The notes beneath the pieces were generated by a model that saw only the letters and a list, made by a program, of their open reading frames with translations, was not told the origin of the DNA and did not search any database. A stretch of DNA of 28,113 nucleotides from a virus: the IMG/VR virus record IMGVR_UViG_3300038701_001011, positions 1 to 28,113 of that record. One strand, 5' to 3'. A program made the translations under genes and the position numbers. Shown here piece by piece: positions 3,143-28,113 of this stretch; positions within the stretch are counted from its first letter, which is position 1, and each line of letters begins with the position of its first letter.

Positions 3143-3171
3143 TTGAAAATGTTCCCCTAAAATCGTATAAT
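3143..3171 (+). promoter_or_regulatory. sigma70-type promoter of the virion operon
   Basis: TTGAAA (3143-3148), a 17-bp spacer and a perfect TATAAT (3166-3171) form a near-consensus promoter. Transcription would start around 3178-3180, at or within 2 bases of the small terminase ATG at 3180. This promoter could drive the whole plus-strand block, since no other strong promoter was noticed downstream on this strand. Confidence 0.75.
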
Positions 3172-3179
3172 TCCAAGAT

Positions 3180-3824
3180 ATGGATATTTTTAACGCATTG
3201 ACAGAAGAGCAACGGGAACTGGCCGGTAAGTTATCGACCGGTGAACTGGTGTTCTGTAACCTGTGGCTGACGTCGCATCAACACGGTATGACGCGCGCAA
3301 AGTGTTACATGCAAGCCGGACTACCCGCGCGTAACATTTCAGCCGCAGGGGCGCTTTCTAATCGTTTACTGAGGAAGCCTGAAGTCGTTGAGTATTGCGC
3401 GTCGATGCGTGGGGAATCTGCCAGGTCTACGGGTTTAACTTTGCGGTATCTTGACATGCAACTAAAAAATATGCTAGAAGGGTCTATCACCGATATTGTG
3501 TCGAGTTTCGCCATGGCTACAGGTACAGTTGATCAGGATACGGGAGACCCGGTTATTAATCACATACCTGTGTTACGATGCGGTATCGATGATATCCCCC
3601 CGGAGACTGTGGCGGCGATTGAATCGATCAAGCAGGGGCCGAAGGGTATCGAGGTAAAGATGTATAATAAACTCGATGCGCTTAAACTTGCGTACCAGCG
3701 TCAAGGGGCTTTGATTGATCGTAAGGAATTAACCGGACTGGATGGAAAACCACTAAACGAGATACCCGATGAACAGCTTGACAATCGTATAAAATCACTA
3801 CTCGATGCAATCGACAAGGGTTGA
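3180..3824 (+). CDS. terS: terminase small subunit
   Basis: The 214-residue product has the layout of DNA-recognition terminase subunits. There is an N-terminal helical domain with a helix-turn-helix-like region (QHGMTRAKCYMQAG, then AAGALSNRLLRKPEVVEYC). A middle helix pair follows (LRYLDMQLKNMLEGSITDI). The C-terminal segment reads MYNKLDALKLAYQRQGAL, the usual 'K..AL..L....G' ending before an acidic tail. It would bind the packaging site and recruit the ATPase. It overlaps the large subunit by 20 bp. A TAA in frame at 3168-3170 means the ATG at 3180 is the earliest possible start. No ribosome-binding site precedes it, which fits a leaderless message from the adjacent promoter. Confidence 0.88.
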   Translation: MDIFNALTEEQRELAGKLSTGELVFCNLWLTSHQHGMTRAKCYMQAGLPARNISAAGALSNRLLRKPEVVEYCASMRGESARSTGLTLRYLDMQLKNMLEGSITDIVSSFAMATGTVDQDTGDPVINHIPVLRCGIDDIPPETVAAIESIKQGPKGIEVKMYNKLDALKLAYQRQGALIDRKELTGLDGKPLNEIPDEQLDNRIKSLLDAIDKG

Positions 3825-5229
3825 ACTTTTAACGCTACTGGAAGAGCGGCAACGGCGCAATAAACAACGTGCTGTGTCGCTCGCTTTTTCGCGCATGTAC
3901 GACTGGCAACGGGAGTTCACGAGACGCACGGCGCAATTTTATGAGTGTTGCCTGTGCGCAGCCAATCAGATCGGAAAAACGTTCACAGGCACGACGATAG
4001 ACGCCTCCCACCTGACCGGGGACTACCCGGACGATTGGGACGGCCACCGATTTAATTTCCCCCCAACAATGTGGCTGCTTGGCTACTCGATGGAAAAAGC
4101 CCGCGATCTGCTACAGACTGCGCTATTCGGTAATTTCTCAGCGGGCCGGTTCTCGGGCGGTTTGGTTCCAGCCGAGCGCGTTCTGTCCTGGGAATCAGCC
4201 ACAGGCACGCCGAACGCTATGCGAACCGTGCGGGTTAGTCATGCGCTTGGGGGTGTGGCTACGGTGCAGTTTTGGTCGTATTCGCAGGGGCAGCACGCGC
4301 TAATGGGGGACGTGGTAGACTGGTTTCATATCGATGAAGAACCAAAAGACCAGGAAATACGTCCGCAAGTACTGACCCGTACACTCAACGGAGACCGAGG
4401 GCGTGGGGGGCGCGGTATTTATACGTTTACGCCGGAGAACGGGCGCACTGAACTGGTAACTATGTTCATGGAGGACCCATCGAACGACCAGTTTTTTATG
4501 CAAAAAGGGTGGTCCGATGCGCCGCACATCACACCGGAAAAACAGGAACGGATGCTCGCACAATACCCGACGCATCAACGGGAAATGAGAACGAAAGGAA
4601 CGCCTATGCTAGGACATGGGCGTATCTATGATCTGTCTGAGGATTATGTAGCTTGCGAGGCGCCGGACGTACAGCCACACTGGTATGTAATTGATGGTAT
4701 GGATTTTGGGTATGATCACCCACAGGCGCACATACAGTTGATAGAAGACCGGGATAATGAAATGTTTTATGTCACTCATGCGTATAAAGAGCGTCTATTG
4801 TCTGCAAATGACGCCTGGGGGGCGGTTCGACCGTGGGCTGAAGGAATCCCAACAGCGTGGCCGCATGATGGGTTGCAGCACGAAAAAGCGCGGCAAGATT
4901 CTGTGCAGTTGATGCGACACTACGTTAACGCAGGGTTTGAAATGCTGCCTGAACATGCCACCTGGCCGGATGGCGGCATAAGCGTCGAAACCGGGCTGTA
5001 CGAAATAAATGACCTCATGAAGAAAGGTAAATTCAAGATCGTTAAAACGTTGCGCCCTGTGCTTGATGAGTTCCTGCAGTATCATCGAGGCTCGAATGGT
5101 AAAATATCTAAAACTATGGACGATCTCCTGGACGCGATACGTTACGCGTATATGATGCGCCGGTACGCTGTGCGGGTAGGCGATGTGGGCGCGGTGCACG
5201 AACCAATAAAATTTGAGGCTTGGGGATAG
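3805..5229 (+). CDS. terL: terminase large subunit (packaging ATPase/nuclease)
   Basis: The 474-residue product has the packaging ATPase followed by the RNase H-like nuclease. The Walker A-type loop is AANQIGKT at residues 52-59 (a deviant P-loop, usual for terminases). The Walker B and catalytic acid are in DWFHIDEE at 171-178. The nuclease acidic residues are likely D299 in DGMDFGY and D438/D442 in TMDDLLDAIRYA near the C-terminus. It cuts concatemeric DNA and pumps it through the portal. Its start overlaps the end of the small subunit gene by 20 bp with no clear ribosome site, so coupling is likely. Length is close to P22 gp2 (about 500). Confidence 0.93.
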   Translation: MQSTRVELLTLLEERQRRNKQRAVSLAFSRMYDWQREFTRRTAQFYECCLCAANQIGKTFTGTTIDASHLTGDYPDDWDGHRFNFPPTMWLLGYSMEKARDLLQTALFGNFSAGRFSGGLVPAERVLSWESATGTPNAMRTVRVSHALGGVATVQFWSYSQGQHALMGDVVDWFHIDEEPKDQEIRPQVLTRTLNGDRGRGGRGIYTFTPENGRTELVTMFMEDPSNDQFFMQKGWSDAPHITPEKQERMLAQYPTHQREMRTKGTPMLGHGRIYDLSEDYVACEAPDVQPHWYVIDGMDFGYDHPQAHIQLIEDRDNEMFYVTHAYKERLLSANDAWGAVRPWAEGIPTAWPHDGLQHEKARQDSVQLMRHYVNAGFEMLPEHATWPDGGISVETGLYEINDLMKKGKFKIVKTLRPVLDEFLQYHRGSNGKISKTMDDLLDAIRYAYMMRRYAVRVGDVGAVHEPIKFEAWG

Positions 5230-5231
5230 AA

Positions 5232-7328
5232 ATGCCGGATTATGAAGATCACGAATACGTAAAGAAAATACTGGCGGAATCCCAGGACGATGATCAATAC
5301 AACCGAGAAGCCGCTAGAGAAGCGAACCTGTTTATAAATTCCCGCGATGGTCAATGGGAACCCCACCTGTGGCAGTCAGCCGAAGGGCGGCCACGCTACA
5401 CGTTTGATAAGACTTCCCCCGTTGTCGATCAGATAGCCGGGGAAATGGAACAGGCGGATTTTAATATTACGATACATCCAGCCGGCGGAGACGCAACGAA
5501 AGACGATGCGAAACTGCTAGACGGTATTGTGCGTAATATCGAAAATATATCAGGTGCGAACGATATATTTAACATGTCCGCGCGCGGTATGGTCACTACC
5601 GGGCTTGACGGGTGGCAGATCAAACAGGCGTATATCGACGATGACAGTTTTGATCAGGATTTAATTATAGAACCTGTCGCTAATTTCATCGACTCGGTAT
5701 GGTTCGGGCCGTTTAAAAAACCTGATGCGAGCGATTGCCAATGGTGTGTAGTTTTAGAATGTGTAGATAAACGCACGTATGAGGCTAAGTACCCGGACGG
5801 CAGCGCTATATCACTATCACAGGGGCGCGTGTTCACGACGTCGCTAGAGAATAACTCGATCGATAAAGTTGTTATCGGTAATCTGTATTACATCCACGAG
5901 AAACCGCGCGAACTATTGTTAATGTCAGATGGGCGCGTGTTAGAGGCTACTGAAGCCGAACCGATTCTAGACGAGCTGGAACAAGCCGGTGTAACTGTTA
6001 AGATGCGCAGGACGCGTAATAAAAACATTGTTTATTCGAGGTTGTTCGACGGTGGCGGGTGGCTGAATAAAAGACAGGAGACCGTGTTTAATCAGATACC
6101 GGTGATACCTGATATCGGTAATTTTTCGATTGTTGAGGATAAAGTCTGTTACAGGGGTGTGGTAGAGAAACTGCTGGACCCGCAGCGCGTTTATAACTAC
6201 TCAACAAGCCGGATGATTGAAGAGGGCGCCCTTGCCCCACGTGCTAAATACTGGATGACTCATAAACAAGCGGCAGGGCACGAACGACAGCTATCAACAC
6301 TCAATAAAAACTCCGACCCGGTACAGTTTTATAACGTTGACCCGGAAGTACCCGGCCCGCCCCAACAGATAGGCGGCGCGCAGATTAATCCAGGACTACA
6401 GAGTATATCTGTAGAGATGACCGAGAACATTAACGCATCCGCTGGGCTGTTTGATGCTAATCGCGGCAACAACCCCGGTTTACAATCCGGTGTGGCTATT
6501 AAAGCGCTACAGAATAAAGGCGATACCGGCACGATAAAATATTTTAAAGCGCATGAACGAGCAATACGCCGTACGGCAAAAATACTTGTGGATGCGATAC
6601 CGAAAGTATACTCAACGCAACGGCAATTGCGAATTATGAATGAGGACGGCAGCGCAGAAACGGCAATAGTCAACCAGGAAGTGTACGACGTTCAGACCAA
6701 TAAAATGGTTATGGTGAACGATCTATCGAAAGGCAAATATGACGTTACATGCTCAGCCGGTCCGTCATTCCAGAACCGGCAGCAAGAGACTGTGTCAGCA
6801 ATAACCGAGATTTCACAGTTCGACCCGTCCGCTATACAAATGGGCAGCGATATACTGTTTAATAATCTACGTTCCCCGGGCATGGACCTGATAGCACAGC
6901 GTAAACGTCAGCAGCTATTTCAAGCTGGGGTAATCCCGTTTGAACAAATGACGGATGAAGAAAAGCGGATATTCGCGCAGCAACAGCAGCAGCCCCCCGC
7001 ACCTGACCCGGCTATGGTTCTGGCCGAAGCGGAAGCGGGCAAAGCACAAGCGCAGGCGAATAAAGTTCAGGTCGATGCGGCTATTGCGCAGAGTAAAGAA
7101 GCACGTGAAAACGCACTTGCAGAACATGAGATTCAACAATCGCAGCAGAAATTTGAATTTAATGTTCTGCTTGAAGAATTGAAACAGACCCGGGAAAGCC
7201 AGAAAGACATAGCCACAACGTTGAAACTGTTGCGGGAAGCTATGGGGGTTGACACTGTAGTAGGTCCGAGTAATACAGAGGCATACGCAAGGGCCGCGGA
7301 TGAGGCGGTAAGATCATTTGACAATTGA
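5232..7328 (+). CDS. P22-type portal protein
   Basis: The 698-residue product has the N-terminal pattern of P22-like portals: an early helical region with AREANLFINSRDGQW, then RPRYTFDKTSPVVDQIAGEM. A large stem and wing region follows, and the protein ends in a Gln/Ala-rich coiled-coil-like barrel (about residues 615-690). P22 gp1 is about 725 residues. It forms the dodecameric DNA channel at one capsid vertex. The ATG at 5232 is chosen because GGGGA sits just upstream; a TTG at 5220 would add four residues and overlap the terminase stop. The final codons form part of a 12-bp repeat that flanks the next gene. Confidence 0.9.
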   Translation: MPDYEDHEYVKKILAESQDDDQYNREAAREANLFINSRDGQWEPHLWQSAEGRPRYTFDKTSPVVDQIAGEMEQADFNITIHPAGGDATKDDAKLLDGIVRNIENISGANDIFNMSARGMVTTGLDGWQIKQAYIDDDSFDQDLIIEPVANFIDSVWFGPFKKPDASDCQWCVVLECVDKRTYEAKYPDGSAISLSQGRVFTTSLENNSIDKVVIGNLYYIHEKPRELLLMSDGRVLEATEAEPILDELEQAGVTVKMRRTRNKNIVYSRLFDGGGWLNKRQETVFNQIPVIPDIGNFSIVEDKVCYRGVVEKLLDPQRVYNYSTSRMIEEGALAPRAKYWMTHKQAAGHERQLSTLNKNSDPVQFYNVDPEVPGPPQQIGGAQINPGLQSISVEMTENINASAGLFDANRGNNPGLQSGVAIKALQNKGDTGTIKYFKAHERAIRRTAKILVDAIPKVYSTQRQLRIMNEDGSAETAIVNQEVYDVQTNKMVMVNDLSKGKYDVTCSAGPSFQNRQQETVSAITEISQFDPSAIQMGSDILFNNLRSPGMDLIAQRKRQQLFQAGVIPFEQMTDEEKRIFAQQQQQPPAPDPAMVLAEAEAGKAQAQANKVQVDAAIAQSKEARENALAEHEIQQSQQKFEFNVLLEELKQTRESQKDIATTLKLLREAMGVDTVVGPSNTEAYARAADEAVRSFDN

Positions 7329-7603
7329 TAGGAGTAAGTGACATGGATTTTGGTGATGCTATTAGAGCTATGAAGCAGGGCGCAAAGGTGGCGCGTGCTG
7401 GATGGAACGGGAAGGGTATGTTTTTGTTTCTGGTGCCAGGTTCAACATTTAAAGTGAATCGTCCGCCATTGCTCGGAATTTACCCGGAAGGAACAGAGAT
7501 CAACTATCACGCGCACATAGATATGAAGACCGCGGATAATAAAGTTGTGCCGTGGTTTGCTAGCCAGACCGACGTGCTATCTGAAGATTGGTTGACAATT
7601 GAT
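7318..7603 (+). repeat. 12-bp direct repeat bracketing the Tad2-like gene
   Basis: TTGACAATTGAT occurs at 7318-7329, over the portal stop codon, and again at 7592-7603, over the last codons of the Tad2-like gene. The copies are read in different frames. Recombination between them would remove the whole Tad2-like gene and leave the portal stop TGA intact, with the scaffold leader following directly. Confidence 0.8.
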
Positions 7604-7606
7604 TAA
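7343..7606 (+). CDS. tad2: Tad2/DUF2829-family protein (Thoeris anti-defence type)
   Basis: The 87-residue product closely follows the DUF2829 pattern. It starts MDFGDAIRAMKQGAKVARAG, followed by the WNGKGMFLFLVPGS block, the INYHAHIDMKTAD block, and the PWFASQTDVLSEDW ending. In Tad2 proteins this small fold forms oligomers that sequester gcADPR signals made by Thoeris, and some members also bind CBASS cyclic nucleotides. Which ligand this one binds cannot be told here. AGGAG at 7330-7334 supports the ATG at 7343 over a TTG at 7325. It lies between portal and scaffold, an odd place for an anti-defence gene, has no promoter of its own that I can see, and is flanked by a 12-bp direct repeat. 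Confidence 0.85.
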   Translation: MDFGDAIRAMKQGAKVARAGWNGKGMFLFLVPGSTFKVNRPPLLGIYPEGTEINYHAHIDMKTADNKVVPWFASQTDVLSEDWLTID

Positions 7607-7672
7607 TTTTACTGTATAAGCAACATAAACCGAACGTGGCGGAACCACGGCGCAATATTAAGGATTTCTTAA

Positions 7673-8446
7673 ATGTCAGAAGAACTAGAGCAGGTAGAGG
7701 AACACGAATCAGACGTTGAGCAGGTAGAGGAACACGAATCAGACGTTGAGCAGGAATCTGACGAGGTTACCGCGCCCGAAGCGGTAGAAGGCGGACCGGA
7801 GCGATTTAACCAACAAATCAATAAGAAGCACCGGGAACTCATGGAAGAACGCCGCGCGCGTGAAGCGCTTGAGGCAAGACTCCAGGAGATTGAAGCGAAA
7901 CAGGCGCCGCAATCCCGCCCGGAGATACCGCCACTACCCGACCCGTATGACGAGGATTTTGACGCGCAGATGAAAGCGCGGGATGCTAAGATACTTGAAG
8001 CTGCAAAGTATGACGCACGACAGGAAACACTGTACCAACAGCAACAACAGCAGCGCGAACAGCAACAGCGGCAAAAACAAACCGAATTAGAAACATTAGC
8101 GAACTCTTACGCGCAACGCGCGGCGAAGTTGAATATTACCGGCGATATGCTAAAAGCTGCTGGTGAAACTGTGGCAGCGGTTGGCATAAGCGACCAGCTA
8201 GCAGAGCATATATTACAGGACGAGCAGGGGCCTTTAATAACAACGTACCTGGCGCGTAATCCTGGCGAAATCGAAGCATTACAAAACCTTACGCCATTTA
8301 AGGCGGCGCTTTACCTGGAACAAAAGATCAAAACGAGACTTTCCGGCGGTAGAAAACAGGCGGACATACCCGCACCGGCGGACACATTACGCGGCGGGGG
8401 CACTACTCGAAAAGAGCGAGGGCCCGCGGGCGCAACTTACGAATAA
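7673..8446 (+). CDS. scaffolding protein
   Basis: The 257-residue product is highly charged, Gln-rich and helical: an acidic N-terminus with a tandem decapeptide (EQVEEHESDV twice), a long coiled-coil-like region (HRELMEERRAREALEARLQEI and a QQQQQREQQQRQ stretch), and a basic end (TRLSGGRKQ ... TTRKERG). This composition and the position directly before the coat gene are those of P22 gp8-type scaffolds (about 303 residues), which guide procapsid assembly and then exit. AAGGA precedes the ATG. The 66-bp leader contains a small CGTGG/CCACG hairpin at 7635-7649. Assignment rests on position and composition rather than on a conserved motif. Confidence 0.8.
   Translation: MSEELEQVEEHESDVEQVEEHESDVEQESDEVTAPEAVEGGPERFNQQINKKHRELMEERRAREALEARLQEIEAKQAPQSRPEIPPLPDPYDEDFDAQMKARDAKILEAAKYDARQETLYQQQQQQREQQQRQKQTELETLANSYAQRAAKLNITGDMLKAAGETVAAVGISDQLAEHILQDEQGPLITTYLARNPGEIEALQNLTPFKAALYLEQKIKTRLSGGRKQADIPAPADTLRGGGTTRKERGPAGATYE
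7688..7747 (+). repeat. exact 30-bp tandem duplication in the scaffold gene
   Basis: Units 7688-7717 and 7718-7747 are identical and encode EQVEEHESDV twice; the first 7 bases of a third unit follow at 7748. Exact identity at third-codon positions suggests a recent slippage event. Confidence 0.95.
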
Positions 8447-8459
8447 ATAAGGTTTAATA

Positions 8460-9734
8460 ATGGCTAATTCATTTGATAGCAACGTCACGCGCAAACTCAT
8501 GCGCGTATTTTTAGAAAAATTTGAAGCTAATCGGGTACATTCAAAAAACGTAAACACTCAGCTATTGAGTGGTGCGTTTAATCCCTCTAGCGGTACTACC
8601 GTTGATTTTAAACGTCCTACTGATTACGTTTCTGTACGTACTGCGGATGGTAATATTACCGGCTCTTTTGGCAGTATCATAACGGGTAAAGCGACCGGTA
8701 CAGTACAGAATTATTTTACTGTACCGCTTGAGTTCACACAGGTTGATCAGGCTTTAAAGATGGACCAACTGGATGAGCTACTCGCACCGGCAGCGCGTCG
8801 CATGGTCACGGATTTAGAACTGGATTTTACATCGTTCATGATGAAGAATTCCGGTTTACTCGCGGGTACACCCGGCACAGCAGCTACCACATGGGACCAT
8901 GTAGCCGAGGGCGGTTCAGTGTTAAAATCTGCTGGCGTTCCTGAAGATATGCCCTGGTACTACACTGTAAACCCATACACACAGGCGAAACTGGCTAGTA
9001 ACCAACGCTCATTGGGCGCGGGCGGTTCTGCCGCGCCGCTAATCACCGAAGCGCATGAGAAAGCAACTATTTCTCAACGTTTCGCGGGTTTTGATCGTGT
9101 TATGACTGCAACAACGTTGCCGAGTTATACCACATTCAATAATTCCGATCGTGCGGGCACGCTATCAGCAGCACCAACGCCTACATATCTGGCGCATAAA
9201 GACACGATGGTTCAGAGCCTGACCGTTGCTAACTTCCCGGCGAATATGACAATTAACGCGGGTGAAGTCTTGCAGGTTGCAGCGATTAACCGCTTGAATC
9301 TGGCCACCCGTACACCTGTACTGGATGAAACCGGCGCGTCTGTGCTGTTCACCGGCGTAGTTAATGCTGATGTTACATTGAGCGGTACAGGAACCGGAAC
9401 TGTGACTATCACCGGGCCTGGTATATTTGAGGCTGGCGGCGCGTATAATACTATTGATGCAGCAATCCCTAACGGCGCGGTTGTAACGCTTCTGGGTGCG
9501 CACAATACCCGCATTCAGCCGAATCTGTTCTGGCATAAAAACGCGTTTAGCATCGGTAGCGTACCATTGCCGAAACTGTACGCCACTGATACACTCGGCA
9601 CTACAGAAGATGGTATCCAGGTTCGTATAACACGTTTTGCGGACGGTATCACCAACAAACAAATGGTCCGTTTTGATATGCTTCCAGCATACGCAACACT
9701 GAACCCATTTATGGCCGGTCAAGGTTTTGGTTAA
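8460..9734 (+). CDS. major capsid protein, P22 coat-like (HK97 fold)
   Basis: This encodes 424 residues, near P22 gp5 (430). The pattern matches P22-type coats in order: an N-terminal arm, VDFKRPTDYVSVRTADG, then the spine-helix region (LAPAARRMVTDLELDFTSFM), then YYTVNPYTQAKLASNQRSLG, then RFAGFDRVMTATTLP. A Gly/Thr-rich insertion-type beta domain follows (about residues 250-340). The ending NLFWHKNAFSIGSVPLPKL is the part most like P22 gp5. It forms the icosahedral shell. An AAGG-containing leader sits before the ATG, 13 bp after the scaffold stop, so both are made from one message. Confidence 0.88.
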   Translation: MANSFDSNVTRKLMRVFLEKFEANRVHSKNVNTQLLSGAFNPSSGTTVDFKRPTDYVSVRTADGNITGSFGSIITGKATGTVQNYFTVPLEFTQVDQALKMDQLDELLAPAARRMVTDLELDFTSFMMKNSGLLAGTPGTAATTWDHVAEGGSVLKSAGVPEDMPWYYTVNPYTQAKLASNQRSLGAGGSAAPLITEAHEKATISQRFAGFDRVMTATTLPSYTTFNNSDRAGTLSAAPTPTYLAHKDTMVQSLTVANFPANMTINAGEVLQVAAINRLNLATRTPVLDETGASVLFTGVVNADVTLSGTGTGTVTITGPGIFEAGGAYNTIDAAIPNGAVVTLLGAHNTRIQPNLFWHKNAFSIGSVPLPKLYATDTLGTTEDGIQVRITRFADGITNKQMVRFDMLPAYATLNPFMAGQGFG

Positions 9735-27593: not shown

Positions 27594-28113
27594 TTAATTA
27601 ACTGGGGGAGGTTGTAAAAACCCAGGGGACGCTTGCACCGGTTGTTGCACCGGTTGTTGCACCGGTTGTTGCACCGGTTGTTGCACCGGTTGTTGCACCG
27701 GTTGTTGCACCGGTTGTTGCACCGGTTGTTGCACCGGCTGTTGAACCGGCTGTTGAACCGGCTGTTGAACCGGCTGTTGAACCGGCTGTTGCATGCCCCC
27801 CGGAGGTGTGGCCATTGCGCCCTGTGGTCGGGCGGTTGAGCCGAACCCTACGGCGGCGGCGTTGGGACCTGATATAATACGTTCCCCGTACCCAACTCGG
27901 CAAACCATCATTGGGTTAACAAAAACCCCCGGATTTTTATTATTCCTATTGCCCGCCACGCTACCATAAACTTCCACGTAATACCCGGGTACTATTTCCC
28001 CGTCCTGTGTAATATCTACAGGCTTACCCGTAACAGGGTCCAGACTGTGGCGGCTTATCGGCAAGCTGGTATTGAAACTTACTACCCAATGGCCTGGGTA
28101 ACCTTCTTTAGAT
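27594..28113 (-). CDS. gp2.5/DUF2815-like single-stranded DNA-binding protein (5' partial) with QQPV-repeat tail
   Basis: The frame continues to the window edge, so the true start is outside. About 172 residues are visible. The core reads EGYPGHWVVSFNTS, then GEIVPGYYVEVYGSVAG, then NPGVFVNPMMVCRVGYGERI. This is the OB-fold pattern of phage SSBs of the gp2.5/DUF2815 kind (YPG.WV...., I..G.YV.V...V, GV......V.....GE.L). It binds ssDNA at the fork. The last third is thirteen consecutive QQPV repeats and then QASPGFLQPPPVN, without the acidic C-terminal tail that usually contacts polymerase. It lies directly upstream of the DNA polymerase gene in the same direction. A TTG at 28064 is not a likely start, since the SSB motif extends past it. 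Confidence 0.8.
   Translation of the reverse strand, partial: SKEGYPGHWVVSFNTSLPISRHSLDPVTGKPVDITQDGEIVPGYYVEVYGSVAGNRNNKNPGVFVNPMMVCRVGYGERIISGPNAAAVGFGSTARPQGAMATPPGGMQQPVQQPVQQPVQQPVQQPVQQPVQQPVQQPVQQPVQQPVQQPVQQPVQQPVQASPGFLQPPPVN
27637..27792 (-). repeat. thirteen 12-bp tandem repeats in the SSB gene
   Basis: Thirteen 12-bp units run without gap: on the plus strand eight ACCGGTTGTTGC, then five of the form ACCGGCTGTTG(A/C). They encode QQPV in the SSB tail. The two variants form separate blocks, which suggests repeated slippage. The direct adjacency of units and coding role rule out a CRISPR array. Confidence 0.95.

Follow-up and report, generated by a model that had tools for sequence, protein, structure and literature searches.

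A short-type Tad2-like gene lies as a cassette between the portal and scaffold genes of a P22-like virus

Analysis of a 28,113-nucleotide stretch of viral DNA (IMG/VR record IMGVR_UViG_3300038701_001011; hereafter the window) revealed a gene of the Tad2-like family (DUF2829) that lies inside a run of terminase, portal, scaffold and coat genes, is bounded by a direct repeat, and belongs to a family in which late genome positions recur. We give slightly better than even weight to the explanation that this gene encodes a sponge with an ADP-ribose-type TIR ligand, carried as a cassette in a cargo slot and synthesized late by read-through. The features on which this reading draws are collected in Table 1.

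A sequence-only reading had placed the product of positions 7343-7606 in the DUF2829/Tad2 family, and the family search it had named as a possible refutation puts the protein inside that family and bears out the coordinates (PF11195; E 1e-25; score 90.4 bits, curated cut-off 25; residues 1-84 on profile positions 1-71 of 73). The open reading frame is intact, running from an ATG through 7343-7603 to a TAA stop at 7604-7606, and both GWNGKGMFLFL and PWFASQTDVL are present in the 87-residue protein. PF11195 is the sole domain detected with Pfam, which found no MuF, portal, large-polyvalent-protein or targeting domain, and PADLOC and NCBIfam models gave no match. The closest solved relatives are ModTad2 (5e-21) and SPO1 Tad2 (7e-17). 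Across 67 homologues (66-84% identity) 26 residues are invariant, including G20, W21, N22, G23, W71 and D82, which indicates that the protein is under constraint; most of the N-terminal invariant residues are common to ModTad2 and SPO1 Tad2. GC content leaves no foreign mark on the gene (47.1%, and 48.3% at third positions, versus 48.9% for the window). Membership in the Tad2-like family, with the Tad2 fold, is close to certain, and a sponge function is likely. Elsewhere in the family, Tad2 domains with N-terminal extensions of ~56-98 residues were observed in L107 (4710-5264), L049 (7767-8261), L056 (6519-6953) and L109 (4776-5294), and in the Tad2 of Pasteurella phage Pmp13 the extension is an N4 gp49/Sf6 gene 66 domain (PF13876).

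Structure prediction, proposed in the same reading, recovered the Tad2 fold in an AlphaFold monomer model (pLDDT 84, pTM 0.62). Below E 0.001 the model matches 24 PDB entries, every one a Tad2 protein, with TM scores of 0.63-0.71 normalised to the query length; ModTad2 bound to His-ADPR (9eib) ranks first. ModTad2, from a Myroides odoratus prophage (PDB 8v3e, and 9eib with His-ADPR), is alike in family and fold, with ~40% identity in the structural match and a size of 87-89 residues. The two proteins have in common an N-terminal FG.A..A.K.G.KV.R.GWNGKGMF and a C-terminal EDW, but ModTad2 has a shorter loop, SQTDVIKNTFGE, where the window protein has VNRPPLLGIYPEGT at 38-51, and SVSD in place of SQTD. 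SPO1 Tad2 (gp34.65; PDB 8sme, 8smf, 8smg) is also alike in fold and of the short type, with ~44% identity in the structural match and the SQTDVLxEDW motif common to both. The loop VNRPPLLGIYPEGT is typical of the window protein's subfamily and unlike that of either solved relative; given this loop, ligand specificity may differ from theirs.

The window protein also has the PF11195 fold in common with HgmTad2/AcrIIA7 and SptTad2 (PDB 8kbi-8kbm, 8wjc, 8wjd), which bind cyclic dinucleotides (PDB titles; PMC12043709) and might suggest a sponge for such molecules, directed against CBASS or related systems. In these proteins, however, beta2 and beta5 are separated by an insertion of 15-18 residues that the window protein lacks, with a gap of at least 15 residues against 8kbi in the profile alignment. 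The long insertion has been linked to cyclic dinucleotide binding (PMC12043709), and SPO1 Tad2, itself short, shows no binding of 3'3'-cGAMP (PMC11722364). A CBASS role is therefore unlikely for this short-type protein, the CBASS cyclic-nucleotide ligand entertained in the sequence-only reading is disfavoured, and we consider a cyclic dinucleotide sponge highly unlikely. Thoeris is reportedly blocked by both solved short proteins, type II by ModTad2 via His-ADPR and type I by SPO1 Tad2 via gcADPR (PMC13299392). Because the window Tad2 is of the short type, and considering these ligands together with the SPO1 result, an ADPR-type signal is the expected ligand.

Table 1 Features of the window around the Tad2-like gene.
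Feature	Position	Strand	Basis or remark
Promoter-like TTGAAA-17-TATAAT (11/12) before terS, presumed start of read-through transcript	3143..3171	+	promoter scan
Terminase small subunit (terS), first gene of presumed late operon	3180..3824	+	PF03592
Terminase large subunit	3805..5229	+	PF17289, PF03237
P22-type portal gene	5220..7328	+	PF16510 7e-138
Left copy of 12-bp direct repeat TTGACAATTGAT	7318..7329	+	repeat search; overlaps portal stop codon (7326-7328)
AGGAG ribosome-binding site of Tad2 gene	7330..7334	+	sequence reading; 8 nt before ATG
Tad2-like (DUF2829, PF11195) gene, short type, 87 aa	7343..7606	+	Pfam match, profile alignment, predicted fold
Right copy of 12-bp direct repeat TTGACAATTGAT	7592..7603	+	encodes last four Tad2 residues, LTID; supplies -35 of 7592-7620 site
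Promoter-like TTGACA-17-TATAAG (11/12) facing scaffold gene, overlaps Tad2 3' end	7592..7620	+	like sites in relatives
H-type RNA pseudoknot, scaffold leader	7630..7649	+	S1 7630-7632 with 7640-7642; S2 7635-7639 with 7645-7649; covariation
Head scaffolding protein gene	7673..8446	+	phrog_8865 9e-29
P22-type coat gene	8460..9734	+	PF11651 4e-55

The location between portal and scaffold genes and the lack of a promoter of the gene's own, both read from the sequence earlier, hold up. The terminase subunit, portal, scaffold and coat genes all lie on the plus strand, and the Tad2 gene begins 14 nt past the portal stop; no promoter-like site lies directly before it, the nearest strong one upstream (11/12) being that ahead of terS. 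With neither its own promoter nor an early-gene location, the gene would, as the best inference from this arrangement, be expressed late by read-through. The site at 7592-7620 escaped the standard promoter scan on account of its final base, G.

Several other features of the window were observed. At 3143-3182 the 11/12 promoter-like site ends 8 nt ahead of the terS ATG, so that a terS transcript from it would be almost leaderless. The divergent intergenic region before terS holds, at 2633-2815, two copies of the 30-base repeat TATTTTGAATTTGTAAACACTTTTCAAACT and long inverted repeats; small minus-strand genes lie nearby, and the region resembles a control region. Within the scaffold gene, a perfect 30-bp tandem duplication (7688-7747) doubles the acidic peptide EQVEEHESDV. 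At 27633-27780, two arrays of 12-bp tandem repeats fall in a minus-strand ORF (27594-28064) that a PADLOC model for a type II nicking endonuclease matches weakly.

The 12-bp repeat TTGACAATTGAT has two occurrences in the window, precisely at both ends of the Tad2 unit; its chance of occurring was put at ~1.5e-4 by Markov simulation of two 50-base ends, computed after the repeat had been seen. With the cassette taken out, what is left looks like an ordinary end of a portal gene and, after it, the TTGACA-17-TATAAG site. A similar promoter-like site lies at the portal stop in the compact relatives L121, L130 and L153, and 11/12 sites occur at 3 of 48 distinct junctions versus 0.05 expected from shuffles. 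The simplest reading is that the cassette was inserted by short-homology recombination, which would have restored the promoter on the downstream side of the inserted gene. The Tad2 gene itself would then depend solely on read-through, with the promoter-like site ahead of terS as the presumed origin.

Relatives were collected with the coat and with a portal alignment; scanning viral contigs with the window's portal or scaffold as a single protein gave no usable relatives. The portal alignment scan yielded 80 viral loci and, among bacterial genomes, 3 loci (two marine MAGs). A readable portal-scaffold junction was present in 65 loci, drawn from the portal-alignment loci, coat-derived loci and phage H6/1, with near-identical loci kept separate: 33 are compact, and 32 contain 0.65-5.3 kb of extra DNA. 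A profile search found Tad2 at the junction in none of the 65, indicating that the arrangement is new in the window's lineage. Some inserts encode polyvalent domains (PBECR5 in L151, ART-PolyVal in L184, LPD23 in L158 and L088); with inserts in about half of the relatives, the junction is a cargo site, in part for conflict proteins. These polyvalent protein genes have both the insertion site and the phage group in common with the window Tad2, and such proteins are associated with phage-host conflict (PMC5512222); they are large and multidomain, unlike the window protein, and contain no Tad2 domain. Large proteins of ~280-980 aa are encoded between portal and scaffold in L137, L139, L151, L158, L159, L177, L184, L185, L187, L191, L194 and L088, several of them with the domains just named.

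Across the family, late positions are common. In four IMG/VR loci (L049, L056, L064, L080) a Tad2 gene directly follows a P22-type portal, with PF16510 detected in all and only ~19% identity to the window portal in alignments that include the latter; scaffold-like and coat-like genes come next in L049, L064 and L080. A fifth locus, L058, has Tad2 between scaffold and coat, and its coat shows 66% identity to the L080 coat. By our reading of 17 annotated records, a non-random sample, the surroundings are late, lysis, packaging or virion genes in nine (Pmp13, Kapi1, AP1, Y3, Momine, KPPK108.1, Vibrio 1.127, Skulduggery and TMW 1.1397 P1). In Vibrio phage 1.127, Tad2 lies right before presumed scaffold and capsid genes. 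Klebsiella phage KPPK108.1 (Drulisvirus) has a short DUF2829 gene in the virion module, between capsid and tail tubular A; it differs in being T7-like, in its ~46% identity, and in having Tad2 one gene farther along the head module. Elsewhere, Tad2 lies among replication genes (MW202475, MW202665) or beside an opposite-strand lysis cassette (VLCpiS13c, AB4P2). The SPO1 gene, the experimentally proven case, sits in a run of small genes with no annotated virion neighbours, unlike the window gene in its head operon. Tad2 genes adjoining ribonucleotide reductase genes were observed in L053, L072 and L074. The earlier expectation that anti-defence genes usually lie early, which would make a late Tad2 exceptional, does not hold for this family, in view of the four portal-adjacent lineages and the nine records.

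We propose that the gene, coding for a short-type Tad2 sponge, is a one-gene cassette that a P22-like podovirus acquired in its portal-scaffold cargo slot, and that its product would be made late, via read-through of the terminase-portal transcript. By analogy with ModTad2 and SPO1 Tad2, the protein is probably a tetramer and would probably bind and hold an ADP-ribose-type TIR signal (His-ADPR or glyco-cyclic ADPR), leaving the effector off and the infection protected. The operon would make the sponge together with the triggers of the defence, placing it in the cell at the time of signal production. Two such triggers are the portal YonE, which switches on the TIR defence SpbK (PMC12847820), and the major head protein, to which ThsB1 responds by recognition (PMC12043709). 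Since proteins of these two kinds, portal and major capsid, are known to activate TIR defences, late synthesis fits: a late sponge would be pointless against an early-firing defence, but TIR defences respond to late proteins, which makes it plausible that the sponge is made alongside its triggers. A signal arising late in infection is likewise plausible (PMC12847820, PMC12043709). Against the proposal speak the location of the SPO1 gene away from virion genes and the lack of Tad2 at the junctions of all 65 relatives, and any benefit of the arrangement in this lineage is thus a conjecture.

The main rival is that the gene is an ordinary moron in a tolerant site, its timing without special meaning and the sponge working whenever it is made. 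Unrelated cargo in 32 of the 65 relatives speaks for this, as do the many genome contexts of Tad2, replication and ribonucleotide reductase genes included, and a protein tree, poorly resolved and with too few columns to tell a single from a repeated origin of the portal position, on which the changes needed by the portal-adjacent Tad2s equal the rows in number. Yet four distant lineages have Tad2 right behind a P22-type portal and other phages have it in further virion modules, which among the loci sampled appears to exceed what neutral spread would suggest. We regard this rival as possible, well short of even.

Other readings tie the protein to the virion itself. Tad2 could be packaged in the head and ejected with the DNA, protecting the next cell from the first minute, with late synthesis needed for loading. 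The polyvalent proteins in the same slot of relatives speak for this, since polyvalent proteins whose genes accompany those of virion components are believed to be packaged and then injected (PMC5512222). Packaging is nonetheless very unlikely: the 87-residue protein has PF11195 alone, with no targeting or MuF-like domain, a sponge acts by stoichiometry while a capsid holds few copies, and many Tad2 genes instead adjoin lysis or replication genes. Equally improbable is the broader notion that the junction is a dedicated slot for head-loaded counter-defence effectors, from which a virion-borne Tad2, injected with the DNA, would pre-arm the cell against TIR signalling. Also very unlikely is a reading in which DUF2829, when encoded in a virion operon, serves head assembly or some other non-immune purpose. 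It does repeatedly neighbour portal, scaffold and coat genes, but subfamily members at 70% identity or more sit in many non-structural contexts, and close relatives of this phage manage without Tad2. A late-made sponge for an ADP-ribose-type signal remains the reading we prefer.

Downstream of the cassette, the scaffold leader contains a predicted H-type RNA pseudoknot, present in most relatives at a distance of 17-32 nt ahead of the scaffold start (among others, L004 5584-5611, L087 3060-3087, L115 2235-2261 and L121 3502-3528). A hairpin with A before the stem and C first in the loop occurs in 23 of 34 distinct scaffold leaders versus 0.5 in shuffles, and in 1 of 143 leaders of five other genes. 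Sequences were then selected by this hairpin, and part of its covariation follows from that choice; the second stem, which played no part in selection, forms in 22 of 27 versus 5.9 with re-dealt loops (a count never reached in 5000), using 7 different triplets. In the 14 rows of equal length, pairing holds for 99.1% of cells, with two-sided changes in 22 cells versus 5.0 in shuffles. A second stem that crosses the first makes sense in RNA alone. The pseudoknot matches no Rfam family and is a candidate new regulatory RNA. In Sf6, APSE-1 and Kapi1 the leader could fold into the same topology near the scaffold start, which is suggestive only, at looser settings with ~1.8 chance matches per kb; the P22 leader is unable to form the pseudoknot in this form. 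Scaffold synthesis is autoregulated in P22, and our guess is that the element could serve as a translational operator for such autoregulation. The pseudoknot may matter more than the Tad2 gene.

Together, these results mark the portal-scaffold junction, which carries cargo in half of the relatives examined, as a place to search for new anti-defence and effector genes. If sponges share an operon with the proteins that trip TIR defences, the position of a counter-defence gene would indicate the stage at which the matching defence fires, a link that could be addressed in cultured phages such as Klebsiella phage KPPK108.1, with its Tad2 between capsid and tail genes.
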